Source: Hydrotalea sp.
GTDB lineage: Bacteria; Bacteroidota; Bacteroidia; Chitinophagales; Chitinophagaceae
Direction of reading: 5' to 3'
Length of the DNA stretch: 64,000 bases
NCBI GenBank assembly: GCA_027364735.1
Contig: DAHXOT010000017.1
Location: 124,001 to 188,000 of the forward strand
Shown here: positions 42,438-53,533 of the stretch, one piece after another
Layout: each line of letters opens with the position of its first letter
Numbering within the stretch: the stretch's first letter is position 1
Translations under genes and position numbers: made by a program
The notes under the pieces: generated by a model
The model's input: only the letters and a program-made list of their open reading frames with translations
What the model was told of the DNA's origin: nothing
Database searches by the model: none

Positions 42438-43997
42438 ATGATTTTAGCTACAATTATTTGGGTTGATGATGAAATAGAAAGTTTGCAATCGCAAAAAATA
42501 TTTTTAGAAAATAAAGGGTATAAAGTACTAACATTTACGAATGGTTTTGAAGCAATAGAATTTATAAAAAACAATGAGGTAGATGTGTTTTTATTAGACG
42601 AAACAATGCCGGGCATTTCCGGGCTGCAAACCTTGCAAAAAATTAAAGAAATTAAACAATACATTCCGGTTGTATTAATTACAAAAAATGAAACCGAAAC
42701 ATTGATGGATGAAGCAATTGGCCGACAAATAACCGATTATTTATTAAAGCCTGTAAATCCCAATCAGGTATTGCTGAGTTTAAAAAAAATAATTGATAAT
42801 AAGCGTTTAGTTGCCGAAACTACTACTACAGCTTATCAGCAACAGTTTAACCAACTGTTTATGGCTTTAAACGATAATCCAAGTTATAATGAATGGATGG
42901 AAATTTATAAAAAATTAGTGTATTGGGAATTGGAGATGGAGAAAAGTAATAGCCCCGAAATGCGTGAAGTATTTGCATTGCAAAAAGACGAAGCCAATAC
43001 AGCATTTTTTAAATTTGTTTCAAAAAATTATGCTAAATGGATCAACCCAAAATCTATCGAATCGCCAATTATGAGCCATAATTTATTTCAATTTAAAGTA
43101 TTGCCACATGTAGAAAAAGGCATACCTGTTTTTTTTATATTAATTGATAATTTGCGATTCGATCAATGGAAATCTATTCAACCTTTATTTGCAGAAAATT
43201 TTAAAATTTTAGAAGAAGAAACATTCTATTCTATTCTTCCAACAGCTACACAATACAGTAGAAATGCTATTTTTAGCGGGTTATTGCCTATTGATATAGA
43301 AAAACAATTTCCGGAGCAATGGAAAAATGATGAAGAAGAAGGCGGTAAAAATTTGTTTGAAGAAGCTTTTCTTAAAGCACAATTAAAAAGATTAAAAAAA
43401 GAAGATATTAAGGTTGGATATACTAAAGTTTTAAATCATAGTGATGGACAAAATTTGGTTAATAATATCCATAATTTATTAACGAACGATTTAAATATTA
43501 TTGTGTACAATTTTGTAGATATGCTTAGTCATGCCAGAACAGAAATGGAAGTGCTAAAAGAATTGGCAAGTGATGAAACAAGTTATAGAAGTGTAACTAA
43601 AAGTTGGTTCGAACATAGTCCTTTGCATCAAGCACTAAAAAAAATTGCCGATAAAAAGTGTAAATTAATTATAGCAACCGATCATGGATCGGTAAGGGTA
43701 AAAACGCCATTTAAAGTAGTAGGCGATAAGCAAACTACTGCCAACCTTAGGTATAAGCATGGAAGAAATTTAAATTACGAATCCAAAGATGTGCTTGCAT
43801 TTAAAGATCCTCACGAGGCAGGCTTGCCCGTTCCTACGGTTAATTCATCTTTTATATTTGCCAAAGAAGATGGATATCTATGTTATCCCAATAACTATAA
43901 TCATTTTGTAAATTATTATAAAAATACTTTTCAGCATGGTGGTATTAGTTTAGAAGAAATGATTATTCCAATAATTAAAATGAGTAGCAAAGTGTAA
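42438..43997 (+). CDS. porX: PorX: response regulator with PglZ domain
   Basis: 519 residues, close to the Porphyromonas PorX length. The N-terminal receiver domain has the acidic pair WVDDE (residues 10-11), the phosphoacceptor Asp54 in FLLDETMPG and the Lys in LLKPV. A helical linker leads to a PglZ (alkaline-phosphatase-like) domain with LIDNLRFDQW, the Thr of PTATQYSRNAIFSG, and IATDHGSVRV. PorX works with the histidine kinase PorY and sigma factor SigP to control type IX secretion, and its PglZ domain has been reported to act on phosphodiesters. No kinase gene is adjacent here. Confidence 0.93.
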   Translation: MILATIIWVDDEIESLQSQKIFLENKGYKVLTFTNGFEAIEFIKNNEVDVFLLDETMPGISGLQTLQKIKEIKQYIPVVLITKNETETLMDEAIGRQITDYLLKPVNPNQVLLSLKKIIDNKRLVAETTTTAYQQQFNQLFMALNDNPSYNEWMEIYKKLVYWELEMEKSNSPEMREVFALQKDEANTAFFKFVSKNYAKWINPKSIESPIMSHNLFQFKVLPHVEKGIPVFFILIDNLRFDQWKSIQPLFAENFKILEEETFYSILPTATQYSRNAIFSGLLPIDIEKQFPEQWKNDEEEGGKNLFEEAFLKAQLKRLKKEDIKVGYTKVLNHSDGQNLVNNIHNLLTNDLNIIVYNFVDMLSHARTEMEVLKELASDETSYRSVTKSWFEHSPLHQALKKIADKKCKLIIATDHGSVRVKTPFKVVGDKQTTANLRYKHGRNLNYESKDVLAFKDPHEAGLPVPTVNSSFIFAKEDGYLCYPNNYNHFVNYYKNTFQHGGISLEEMIIPIIKMSSKV

Positions 43998-49437: not shown

Positions 49438-50133
49438 TTAATCTTTCTTTTCTTTTCTTGGATTGATTAAGAGTACTTCATCTACCAAGCCATATTCTTT
49501 TGCTTCTAAAGCAGTCATCCATAAATCTCTATCGCTATCTTTTGTAATAGTTTCAATAGATTTTCCTGTGTGGTTGGCAGTTATTTCGTACAATTCTTGC
49601 TTTAATTTTTTAATTTCTTTAGCTGTAATTTCAATATCACTTGCTTGCCCACCAATTGCTCCACTTGGTTGATGAATCATTATTCTGCTATGTTTTAAAG
49701 CAGTTCTTTTTCCTTTTACACCGGCACATAATAATATTTGTCCCATACTGGCTGCTATGCCTGTGCAAATGGTTGCAATATCCGGACTAACAAATTGCAT
49801 AGTATCATAAATGCCTAAACCTGCATAAACGCTACCGCCGGGGCTATTAATATACATTTGAATATCTCTGCTTCTATCAACACTATCCAAAAATAAAAGC
49901 TGTGCTGTAATTATGTTAGCCACATAATCGTCAATGCCTTGCCCCAGAAAAATAATTCTATCCATCATTAAACGGCTAAAAACATCCATTTGAGCAATAT
50001 TTAAAGGCCTTTCTTCAATAATATATGGCGTAAGGTTTGTTGGGTTAAACTGCGTTTTAAAACTATGCAAGGTATTACTACTGATACCTTTGTGTTTTAT
50101 GGCATATTTTTCAAATTCTTTTCCTAAGTTCAT
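49438..50133 (-). CDS. clpP: ATP-dependent Clp protease proteolytic subunit ClpP
   Basis: 231 residues. The catalytic triad Ser129 (TGIAASMGQILL), His154 (SRIMIHQPSGA) and Asp203 (DRDLWMTALEA) is intact, and the Gly-rich IGGQASDIEI is typical. The first ~35 residues are a propeptide-like extension. This copy resembles canonical ClpP more than its neighbour. It is the first gene of the clpP-clpP-clpX cluster. Homologous clusters often have a tig gene upstream; here a restriction-modification unit lies there on the other strand. Confidence 0.94.
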   Translation of the reverse strand: MNLGKEFEKYAIKHKGISSNTLHSFKTQFNPTNLTPYIIEERPLNIAQMDVFSRLMMDRIIFLGQGIDDYVANIITAQLLFLDSVDRSRDIQMYINSPGGSVYAGLGIYDTMQFVSPDIATICTGIAASMGQILLCAGVKGKRTALKHSRIMIHQPSGAIGGQASDIEITAKEIKKLKQELYEITANHTGKSIETITKDSDRDLWMTALEAKEYGLVDEVLLINPRKEKKD

Positions 50134-50319
50134 CGGTTATTATTTATGGAATGAAGGTAAGTGTTTTGCAGTTTCAAATACCGTGCAAACTAATTGAAGC
50201 GACAAAATTGCAGTTCTATTATTGCAGAATAATTGATAAGTATATTGGTTACAATAGTGTAGCTGTTGTGGGTAAGGCAATTAAATTTCCACATTTTTAA
50301 AATATATTCAGTAAAAACT

Positions 50320-50327
50320 TATTTTTG
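50320..50327 (+). promoter_or_regulatory. -7 box TATTTTTG before the methylase gene
   Basis: TATTTTTG ends 4 nt before ATG 50332, which supports that start over the frame beginning at 50266 and predicts a leaderless transcript. No clear TTG lies at -33. Confidence 0.55.
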
Positions 50328-50331
50328 GAAT

Positions 50332-51360
50332 ATGCCTAAAAAACTTGAATTAGTAACTGACGAAGTAATATCAACAGCTGAAGATTTATTTCAACCTTAC
50401 AATTTAAAGGCAAAACCTTTTTTGAAATGGGCTGGCGGAAAAGGACAATTACTTCAGAAATTTCAAGAGCTTTATCCTCAAAAATTAATTGACAAAAAAA
50501 TAAAAAATTATTACGAACCTTTTTTGGGAAGTGGTGCAGTTTTTTTTGACATTGCACAAAACTACGAAATTGAAAATGCTTTTTTGTATGACATCAATGA
50601 AGAGCTGGTTTTGACTTATCAAGTTATTCAGAAAGATGTTTCTAAACTAATTAACTTTTTATATCATTATCAAAAATCTTATTATCGGCTAAATAAAAAA
50701 CAACAGGAAGAATACTTTTACGAGCAAAGAACAAATTACAACTTACAAAGATTTAATATTGACTACAACAAATATTCTGAACAATGGATTTCACGAGCAG
50801 CACAATTAATTTTCTTAAATAGAACTTGTTTTAATGGGCTCTATCGAGTTAATTCAAAAGGCGATTTTAATACGCCAATTGGCGACTATGAAAATCCAAC
50901 CATTTGCGATGAATATAATTTGCTTTGCGTTTCCAAAATTTTAGAAATAGCAACAATAAAAAAAGCCGACTTTAGACAAGTTAAAAGAGAGCTTAAAAAT
51001 AATTCATTTGTTTATTTTGACCCACCCTATCGACCGATAAGTAAAACTGCAAACTTTACTGCATACAGTAAACATGACTTTGATGACAAAGAGCAATATG
51101 ACTTATCTAGTTTATTTAAATATATTCATTCAAAAGGTGAATTTGTAATGCTTAGTAATTCAGACCCCAAAAATAACGACATTACAGACAATTTTTTTGA
51201 CGACATTTATCAAGATTTTAATTTAATTAGAATTCCCGCTAAAAGAATGATTAATTCAGACAAAACCAAAAGAGGAAAAATAAATGAAATTGTTGTAACA
51301 AATTATTCTTTTCAAACATGCAAAAAGGAACAAAAGGAAACATTACAGGCAATCAGTTAG
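50332..51360 (+). CDS. dam: DNA adenine methylase, D12 class
   Basis: 342 residues. The SAM-binding FLKWAGGKGQLL (residues 30-41), YYEPFLGSGAVFFDI, the typical FLNRTCFNGLYRVNSKGDFN and the catalytic DPPYRPIS (from 230) mark a D12-class N6-adenine methylase like Dam or M.DpnII. The target sequence cannot be read off, though GATC is common in this class. 17 of 23 Asp codons are GAC, against 2 of 24 in porX, which suggests recent transfer. It overlaps the next gene by 43 bp and with it forms a likely type II restriction-modification unit. Confidence 0.88.
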   Translation: MPKKLELVTDEVISTAEDLFQPYNLKAKPFLKWAGGKGQLLQKFQELYPQKLIDKKIKNYYEPFLGSGAVFFDIAQNYEIENAFLYDINEELVLTYQVIQKDVSKLINFLYHYQKSYYRLNKKQQEEYFYEQRTNYNLQRFNIDYNKYSEQWISRAAQLIFLNRTCFNGLYRVNSKGDFNTPIGDYENPTICDEYNLLCVSKILEIATIKKADFRQVKRELKNNSFVYFDPPYRPISKTANFTAYSKHDFDDKEQYDLSSLFKYIHSKGEFVMLSNSDPKNNDITDNFFDDIYQDFNLIRIPAKRMINSDKTKRGKINEIVVTNYSFQTCKKEQKETLQAIS

Positions 51361-51806
51361 AAGTAGCTGTTAAAACAGTTTTATCAGGTAAAGGCTTTCA
51401 AATTGTGAGCTACAGAAGTTGGAAAAAAAATCCTGACAAATATGGAAAAGAGTTGTTGCTCGAAAATGTACCATTCACAACAATTTATCATCACAAAGGG
51501 AATACAGAATTTTTATTGTTATCAGACAAATACAAACTTCATATTCGCATTGAATGCAAATGGCAACAAGTTAAGGGATCGGTTGACGAAAAACTTCCTT
51601 ATTTATATTTAAACAGTATCGAGGCAATGCCAGAAAAATCAATTATGATTTTAATTGACGGTGCTGGTTGGAAACCTGGTTCTATTAAATGGTTAAGAGA
51701 GGCAGTTAAAAATAAAATTTACACAACAGAACAAAATAATAGCAAAACAATTTTTGTTTTTAGTATAACCGAATTTTTCACTTGGGCAAATAACATTTTT
51801 GTTTGA
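51318..51806 (+). CDS. PD-(D/E)XK nuclease superfamily protein, probable restriction endonuclease
   Basis: 162 residues. A helix with Glu15 (ITGNQLEVAVKTVL) is followed by a strand ending in Asp70 and then HIRIECKWQQVKGSVDEKL, where Glu79 and Lys81 form the ExK of the PD-(D/E)XK core. The small size and the 43-bp overlap with the adenine methylase gene suggest that it is the restriction partner. All four Asp codons are GAC, as in the methylase. The role as restriction enzyme is inferred from context; a DNA-repair or phage-type nuclease is the alternative. Confidence 0.72.
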   Translation: MQKGTKGNITGNQLEVAVKTVLSGKGFQIVSYRSWKKNPDKYGKELLLENVPFTTIYHHKGNTEFLLLSDKYKLHIRIECKWQQVKGSVDEKLPYLYLNSIEAMPEKSIMILIDGAGWKPGSIKWLREAVKNKIYTTEQNNSKTIFVFSITEFFTWANNIFV

Positions 51807-51999
51807 CAAAGAAGCCCACCTACAACAAAAGTGCTATGCTATTACTATTGCGACAACACACATTTGAACTAAACAGATTTGCAAACTTTATATTTTATTC
51901 AACTAAAAATTAAAAACGCAACGGTGTAAGCACAAAGCTGGTTTACACATTTGATATCAATCAAAACAAGTGGTTAGCTTTATAACTTTATGTTCAAAA
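51807..51999. other. Gap between the restriction unit and guaB
   Basis: 193 bp with no plausible gene, RNA or promoter that I can recognise. Its composition is less A-rich at the left end and contains short imperfect repeats. It is the right edge of the transferred unit; no clear direct repeat marks an insertion. Confidence 0.4.
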
Positions 52000-53499
52000 T
52001 TATTTTCTGCTGTAATTAGGTGCTTCTTTTGTAATATCAATATCGTGAGCATGGCTTTCTTTCATACCTGCGTTGGTTATTTTTACAAAAGTTGCTTGTT
52101 GTAAATCTTTAATAGTTGTAGCTCCGCAATAACCCATACCGGCTCGCAATCCTCCAACAAATTGATATACTACTTCGCTTAAATGCCCTTTATAGGCTAC
52201 TCGTCCTTCAATACCTTCGGGTACAAATTTTTTAATATCATCTTCTACATCCTGAAAATATCTGTCGCTGCTACCTTTACTCATAGCTCCTACACTTCCC
52301 ATACCTCTATATTCTTTAAATTTTCTTCCTTCATAAATAATCGTATCGCCGGGGCTTTCTTCTACTCCTGCAAAAACACTACCCATCATTACCACATTAG
52401 CACCTGCAGCTAAAGCTTTTACCATATCGCCGGTATAGCGAATACCACCATCGGCAATTACAGGAATATTTCTGGCTTTTAATGCTTTTGTTGCCTCCAT
52501 AATAGCAGTAAGTTGTGGCACACCTGCACCTGCAACAATACGGGTAGTACAAATAGAGCCGGGACCAATACCTACTTTAACTGCGTTGGCACCCGCATCG
52601 GCTATGGCTTTAGCACCGGCAGCAGTACCAACATTGCCGGCAATAATTTGTAAATCTTTAAAATTTTTTCGTAGCAATGCAATAGCCGAAATAACACCTT
52701 TGCTATGCCCATGGGCACTATCTAAAGTAACAATATCTACTCCAACTTGTTGTAATGCAGCAGCTCTATCTAATAAATCTTTGGTAATTCCCAATGCAGC
52801 ACCAACTACTAAACGGCCTAAATTATCTTTTACGGCATTAGGAAAATTGCGAATTTGTAAAATATCGCGATAAGTGATTAGTCCAATTAATTTACCGGTT
52901 TTGTTTACAACAGGTAATTTTTCAATTTTATATTGACGAAGAATTTTTTCTGCTTTTTTTAAGTCGGTTCCATCGGGAGCGGTAATTAAATTTTCTTTTG
53001 TCATTACTTCACTTACTTTTCTTCTTTTATTATCGCTCTCAAATCGTAAATCTCGGTTCGTTAAAATACCTACCAACATTTGGTTTTGATCAACAATAGG
53101 AATTCCGCCTATTTTATTTTCTTTCATTAATTGTAAAGCATCTCCAATAGTAGCATCTACTCTTAAAGTAATAGGATCGATAATCATTCCACTTTCGCTT
53201 CTTTTCACTTTGCGAACTTGATCGGCTTGTTTTTCAATGCTCATATTTTTATGTAAAATACCTAAGCCGCCTTCACGTGCTAAGGCTATAGCCAAATTAG
53301 CTTCTGTAACCGTATCCATTGCTGCAGAAAGCATTGGAACATTTAAAACTATTTTTTGTGTTAGATGAGATCGGATATCAGTTTCTCGAGGTAATACCTG
53401 GCTATATGCGGGCATTAATAATACATCATCGAAAGTTAAACCTTCGCCGAATAAGCGAGATGATTGTTTTTGTGTGTGGGTAGATTTTATTGTTGCCAT
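52000..53499 (-). CDS. guaB: Inosine-5'-monophosphate dehydrogenase
   Basis: 499 residues from ATG 53499; a TTG two codons earlier is less likely. The barrel starts at [19 protein letters not shown], a CBS domain pair occupies residues ~95-215, the catalytic Cys is in [13 protein letters not shown], and the flap has [17 protein letters not shown]. It oxidises IMP to XMP, the first step of GMP synthesis. A full -7 box lies only 3 nt before the ATG. It is divergent from the BtuB-like receptor gene. Confidence 0.95.
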
Positions 53500-53502
53500 T
53501 TG

Positions 53503-53533
53503 CAAAAATAAGGATATGCGTTTTTTCTGCCAA
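53503..53533 (-). promoter_or_regulatory. Promoter of guaB (near-leaderless)
   Basis: The - strand has TTG (53531-53533), 20 nt, then TATTTTTG (53503-53510), with only CAA between the box and ATG 53499. The transcription start should fall on or slightly inside the start codon. Confidence 0.55.

Follow-up and report, generated by a model that had tools for sequence, protein, structure and literature searches.

The 64,000-nt stretch of Hydrotalea sp. DNA analyzed here (hereafter, the window) carries, between clpP and guaB, two overlapping genes that raise the question of whether they form a restriction-modification unit, which site such a unit would recognize, and how it came to lie there. The first gene (M, 50332..51360, + strand) runs from an ATG at 50332 to a TAG at 51358-51360 and encodes, on ORF, Pfam and TIGR evidence, a 342-aa D12-class N6-adenine DNA methyltransferase of the Dam/DpnM family. 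The second (R, 51318..51806, + strand) runs from an ATG at 51318 to a TGA at 51804-51806 and encodes a 162-aa nuclease of the PDDEXK_11 family (PF20472), a putative restriction endonuclease as judged from the ORF, Pfam, alignment and a structure model. The two reading frames overlap by 43 bp (51318..51360, + strand), an arrangement that may couple their translation. The initial annotation had described a D12-class methylase and a 162-residue PD-(D/E)XK protein overlapping by 43 bp, and the coordinates, PF02086 and PF20472 all agree with this description. As argued below, we consider it highly probable that the locus is an ordinary Type II restriction-modification unit directed at GATC, which has a compact nuclease and came to lie between clpP and guaB by recent acquisition.

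The assignment of M is straightforward. PF02086 (D12 class) matches it with an E-value of 7.3e-55 and 186.9 bits, against a cut-off of 22, and TIGR00571 (dam) with an E-value of 7.7e-77 and 258.6 bits, against a curated cut-off of 114.85; the DPPY motif is present, and a sequence search of the PDB returned DpnM (2dpm) as its closest solved relative (E 3.9e-52). A TTG lies upstream in frame with M, at 50266, and the alignments with several relatives begin at residue 1 of M, in line with the ATG start. No other D12 match occurs in the host genome.

The nuclease had initially been regarded as of a type that could not be named; R proves to belong to Pfam PF20472, PDDEXK_11, a family whose name is based on its fold (E 5.3e-50, 169.4 bits against a gathering cut-off of 23.7), and the acidic-ExK core of this family is present in it (E64, E79, K81). 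The candidate active-site residues E15, E64, E79 and K81 are all invariant in 12 aligned R proteins, no R alignment including the loci with internal stops in R (L004, L022), the partial L027 or the frameshifted L007/L029, L008/L030 and L035. When two of the mini forms described below were added, E79 and K81 were still invariant and E15 nearly so, residue 64 being D in the minis, and K81 is replaced by Arg in two phage relatives (L213, L222). An AlphaFold model of R, predicted from an alignment (A3) from which L031 was omitted, has a mean pLDDT of 84.5, with the stretch 81-90 at 66, and PD-(D/E)XK enzymes came top in structural comparison, with BstEII as the best match (Z 9.3, rmsd 3.8, 134 aligned). 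Since the rows after BstEII stand at Z 7.5, with Z 7 to 8 being common, we take this match as evidence of fold only; Foldseek alone gave zero matches to the model at E <= 0.001. Together, model and alignment predict a PD-(D/E)XK fold with an acidic/lysine active site. Other searches with R gave little: in the PDB, the single sequence retrieved nothing relevant (weak matches to two phosphodiesterase entries, E 0.17 and 0.2) and the R profile no match, NCBIfam and PADLOC gave no match to the window R at E up to 1, and PHROGs gave weak matches alone (E 0.013 and 0.29). In the literature searched, we found no mention of PF20472 or PDDEXK_11, and no report of restriction-modification for Hydrotalea.

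That M and R belong together, as the initial annotation had proposed in calling them a two-gene restriction-modification unit, is indicated by their linkage elsewhere. An adjacent D12 methylase was found at 19 of 21 distinct close R loci, defined by a tblastn identity of at least 49%, with the window counted and repeat records (L003=L019, L007=L029 and L008=L030, the last pair recognized by equal identities only) counted once; the two others are L027, where the start of R is missing and there is no methylase match, and L034, which is cut by a contig end. Among the carriers compared, the pair lies in unlike contexts, so that methylase and endonuclease are adjacent and move as a unit, as in Type II systems of the P subtype. 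Moreover, in five loci (L004, L007=L029, L008=L030, L022 and L035), a stop or frameshift interrupts R, whereas M stays open, with no stop before residue 326; sequencing errors are possible where broken R genes come from MAGs, and one of the five, L007=L029, comes from an isolate, Hydrotalea flava CCUG 51397, at a coverage of 293. The reverse case, M in three frames beside an intact R, was seen once, in L026, at a coverage of 1.86x. Such linkage, across unlike contexts and with loss of R while M is kept, is the pattern of restriction-modification units. The disruption of R in five relatives could also suggest that the window pair is a relic, M acting as an orphan regulatory methylase beside an inactive R. 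We regard this as quite unlikely, given that the window R is full length and has its active-site residues, and that dN/dS between it and L019 is 0.036, with dS close to saturation; R is intact in the window and, by this comparison, appears to be under purifying selection.

Related arrangements were seen in other settings. Among plasmid records, R has one match, 49% identical, on an Alicyclobacillus plasmid with the same Dam-then-nuclease gene order as in the window; this plasmid protein, searched in turn against plasmids, matched itself alone, and phage records searched with R gave no match. At L010:449-2783, a D12-like methylase, a 172-aa PDDEXK_11-like protein and an N6/N4 methylase form a three-gene unit, made of the same gene kinds as DpnII-type units, and at L038:1294-2719 a nuclease lies near an N6/N4 methylase with no D12 match. 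In genome G050 (L241/L242), a DpnII-type endonuclease gene is split over two reading frames beside an open gene that we take by eye to be a D12-like methylase, which may be a further instance of R decaying while M is retained.

We then asked how the pair came to its present site. On the left lies clpP (49438..50133, − strand), a conserved host gene identified from its ORF and from comparison with G037, the sole genus-mate compared; on the right lies a gene (52000..53505, − strand) that we recognized by eye from its ORF as guaB, presumably encoding IMP dehydrogenase. The segment 50272..51982 has no counterpart in G037, the breakpoints being sharp. On its left side, the two genomes are 95% identical across 5.27 kb, ending at about 50271, and on its right side, homology is regained at about 51983 and covers the end of guaB as far as the contig extends (472 bp, 87%). 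At this junction G037 has instead some 0.54 kb, in which lies a 137-aa ORF (L103:7808-8221), weakly lipocalin-like at 17.9 bits, under the cut-off of 22.4, whose product has one weak match elsewhere in the genome of the window (25%, E 5.9e-4). The clpP-guaB junction thus carries different cargo in two species. A PF20472 search of G037, which is 86% complete, gave no match; across the host family Chitinophagaceae (f1, which includes Hydrotalea flava), PF20472 was above cut-off in 11 of 294 genomes, the host's own counted, and across the phylum in 8 of 395, these positives including some distant or marginal members.

The surroundings of the pair differ among carriers too. The 11 carrier contexts compared have almost no flanking genes in common, likenesses being limited to a small protein shared by L019, L023 and L028 (34-60%), one match between L019 and L020 (32-33%) and one between L020 and L023 (48%); only downstream flanks were compared for G298, whose stretch starts inside the pair, and for G522, whose stretch starts just before M. 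The small protein, which adjoins the restriction-modification pair and has a GRHKCAGCAY-like motif, is encoded at L019:4725-4988, L023:3604-3858 and L028:2355-3227; in L028, it is 290 aa long and additionally has a NOV_C domain. Housekeeping proteins, whose GuaB and DprA names we assigned by eye, are discordant with the pair: G298, of another class, resembles the window at 77% in R and 72% in M, yet at 61% in GuaB and 34% in the DprA-like protein, and G011, of the same family, at 69% and 62% for R and M with 70% and 46% for the two others. In the closest pair (L003=L019, genome G248), the values are 87%, 84%, 83% and 68%. Because the site differs in G037, because the flanks of carriers differ and because the housekeeping proteins are discordant, recent acquisition of the pair by horizontal transfer at the clpP-guaB site, already suggested by the initial annotation, is supported by these comparisons. 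The opposite view, an old pair inherited vertically at this site, could appeal to the occurrence of the closest R and M in the same family and to the depletion of GATC in both the host and its near relatives (see below); it is contradicted by the different content of the G037 site, where the pair is lacking, by the unlike neighbors of the carriers and by the G298 and G011 values, and we judge it extremely improbable. As had been noted before, no mobile-element flanks are seen beside the pair: a repeat search around it gave short imperfect two-copy repeats alone, the longest being of 38 nt at 74% and lying within the segment, and an Rfam scan of 49500-52500 gave no match at gathering score.

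The case for recent transfer had originally relied on aspartate codons, with GAC in 21 of 27 in the pair against 2 of 24 in the gene at 42438-43997, a porX-like gene so labeled by that earlier reading, and these counts are exact (M, 17 GAC and 6 GAT; R, 4 and 0). In the other window ORFs of at least 150 aa, GAC accounts for 82 of 883 Asp codons (Fisher p 3e-16 against M and R together), and the GAC fraction of M, 0.74, compares with a maximum of 0.31 elsewhere on this contig, in 72 genes of 10 or more Asp codons from seven further 20-kb stretches. The overall codon usage of the two genes is nevertheless not extreme, lying within the range of 53 window ORFs (M fifth lowest, R tenth lowest), and the M genes of seven other carriers vary, from 17 of 23 GAC in L002, as in the window, to between 3 of 20 and 10 of 22 in the remaining six. 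For both reasons, we consider the Asp bias by itself a modest sign of transfer, and the comparative evidence stronger.

We turned to the site that the pair would recognize, for which the initial annotation had suggested a possibly new specificity. The base contacts of E. coli Dam on GATC are reported to include K9, Y119, L122, R124 and P134 (PMC10073500). As read from the alignment of M with PDB sequences, M has K, F, L, R and P at these positions, and DpnM has the identical contact set, including F at the position of Dam Y119. The contacts are kept in an alignment of 31 rows (the window and 30 relatives, or 28 distinct loci given three repeat pairs; L027, L034 and L038, with no methylase match, and D12 methylases with other targets lie outside it), K being found in 30 of 30 covering rows and the aromatic residue, L, R and P in 31 of 31. 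In addition, four phage relatives of R (L234, L235, L236 and L237) adjoin a methylase of PF05869, a phage-type Dam family unrelated to D12, which we take, going by its name, to be GATC-type. If R itself reads GATC, such an exchange of methylase partner would be expected. Because the Dam contacts are kept in M and its partners and because phage R genes stand beside an unrelated Dam family, GATC is most likely the target of the pair, a prediction drawn from sequence comparison. A restriction-modification system for another or longer site, such as a GAT-containing hexanucleotide, with a new specificity of R, is on this evidence unlikely: D12 enzymes with targets other than GATC do exist, and R has a single plasmid match (49%), while sequence searches gave it no relevant relative of solved structure, but M and the other methylases examined retain the five contact positions, R is paired with the unrelated Dam family in four phage relatives, and it resembles the catalytic half of DpnII (see below). 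Our literature search found nothing on Dam versus M.EcoRV specificity.

We also considered GATC avoidance in the host as a test of specificity and rejected it. Based on tri- and dinucleotide counts, 547 GATC sites were observed in 455 kb sampled from the host against 941 expected (0.58), and the window alone has 78, against a mean of 118 in dinucleotide shuffles. Several non-carriers are depleted to the same level (G037, 0.58 in 97 kb; G010, 0.57; G007, 0.58), and the depletion is therefore not diagnostic; others stand at 1.10 (G015), 1.20 (G018), 1.08 (G009) and 0.71 (G014, 24 kb). Such non-carriers may hold other GATC systems; of 117 family genomes, one alone (G050), which is none of these, matches Pfam DpnII. 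Ratios in carriers are 0.23 (G248), 0.36 (G052), 0.57 (G061), 0.48 (G298) and 0.46 (G522), with 0.57 in Hydrotalea G142, where R is broken, and 0.70 in the mini carrier G233; the low values in G248 and G052 are suggestive only. In the same host sample, CTAG and GCGC are strongly depleted (0.13 and 0.26 of expected), and for GCGC the ratio falls to 0.0 in the G248 and G052 samples, a hint that this lineage has further restriction systems.

The family extends to phages and to smaller forms. A single-sequence scan of viral contigs with R confirmed no locus, whereas a profile scan found 32 PDDEXK_11 loci; neighborhoods were listed for 22 of them (10 judged redundant were skipped, and near-duplicates remain in L213/L214 and L238/L239), and methylases were searched by tblastn in all 32. 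A methylase adjoins R in 10 of the 22 neighborhoods, six being D12 (L209, L210, L213, L214, L222 and L225, four of them typed) and four PF05869. In the 12 others, neither motif scan nor tblastn found a methylase beside R, and PDDEXK_11 proteins would therefore not be restriction enzymes only. In L215, L220, L221, L223 and L232, a stand-alone PDDEXK_11 gene with no methylase found adjoining precedes an ORF of 508-514 aa; L215 lies between a 3'-5' exonuclease/UDG gene (before) and a family A DNA polymerase (after). Mini members are encoded at L009:1420-1809 (− strand, 129 aa), L036:1423-1821 (− strand, 132 aa) and L037:1486-1902 (+ strand, 138 aa), each immediately preceding a D12-like methylase that has the Dam contact residues. 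The model of the L037 mini (pLDDT 83.9) matched BstEII (Z 10.1, rmsd 3.6, 120 aligned), AF1548 and Can2 (both Z 10.0) and also Holliday-junction resolvases, and a mini R searched against plasmid and phage records gave no match. At 129-138 aa, the minis are, to our knowledge, among the smallest candidate restriction enzymes.

The setting of L215 and the resolvases matched by the mini model would also fit a repair or replication nuclease, either nicking under Dam guidance as MutH does or of a phage type, carried along with a Dam methylase. For the window R we find this very hard to credit beside the M-R linkage at 19 of 21 close loci in unlike contexts and the loss of R with M kept. The probabilities that we attach to the alternatives are not mutually exclusive. 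According to the preferred reading, a GATC-specific restriction-modification unit, M would methylate host DNA at the GATC adenine and so protect it from R, a PD-(D/E)XK nuclease that would cut GATC in incoming unmethylated DNA, probably as a dimer on this palindrome, and the pair would serve as defence. GATC restriction-modification systems are common, and the locus itself is therefore ordinary. What rises above routine is the family, with its stand-alone phage genes, two unrelated methylase partners and mini forms. Were R confirmed, a Pfam family named by fold alone would gain a function and a target, the minimal size of a GATC-cutting enzyme would become clearer, and bacterial restriction enzymes would have a testable link to the stand-alone phage nucleases of PDDEXK_11.

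Finally, we compared the pair with known systems, starting from DpnII. By Pfam score, R is no DpnII member: PF04556, N-terminal region included, gave no match to the window R at E up to 1. Two phage PDDEXK_11 proteins approach this profile below its cut-off of 23 (L211, E 1.9e-4, 21.3 bits; L215, E 2.7e-3, 17.5 bits), over its C-terminal positions 143-265, and the R of L028 matches positions 150-266 of 290 in PADLOC REase_II PDLC03548 (E 0.0033). A profile comparison of 19 PDDEXK_11 with 7 DpnII-type proteins aligned 118 columns (probability 70%, E 4e-5, score 39.0), placing E79 on the DpnII glutamate (ExK/ExN) and DGAGW on DG.GW; a rerun scored 39.8, against a best of 23.4 among 60 column shuffles. 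Four Mrr/AF1548-like proteins used as a control scored as high (41.3) although their aligned core was shorter, at 72 columns, so we do not propose that R is related to DpnII exclusively. The comparison shows a likeness that points to common PD-(D/E)XK ancestry, the co-linear match being longer with DpnII. Tentatively, and with rather less than even confidence, we propose PDDEXK_11 as a separate compact lineage of GATC restriction nucleases that has only the catalytic half of DpnII, lies beside two unrelated Dam families, stands alone in phages and includes, in the minis, some of the smallest restriction endonucleases. A further protein alignment (A5) comprises a selection of 18 relatives.

DpnII-type systems (PF04556), such as that of Lactococcus lactis pSRQ700, thus resemble the window pair in having a Dam-type D12 methylase with the contact residues and an adjacent nuclease with a co-linear catalytic core, DG.GW motif included. 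They differ in that R, at 162 aa, is missing the N-terminal half of the seven DpnII-type proteins (285-309 aa) and has ExK in place of the ExN common to all seven, and in that pSRQ700 has a second methylase gene where the window pair has one methylase. E. coli Dam and DpnM share with M the family, the DPPY motif and the GATC-contact residues; Dam is solitary in E. coli, whereas M has a partner nuclease. BstEII (9ibq), which recognizes GGTNACC, is a 286-residue chain with 13% identity to R. The Alicyclobacillus plasmid member of PDDEXK_11, annotated as "PD-(D/E)XK nuclease superfamily protein," differs in nothing of principle from R.
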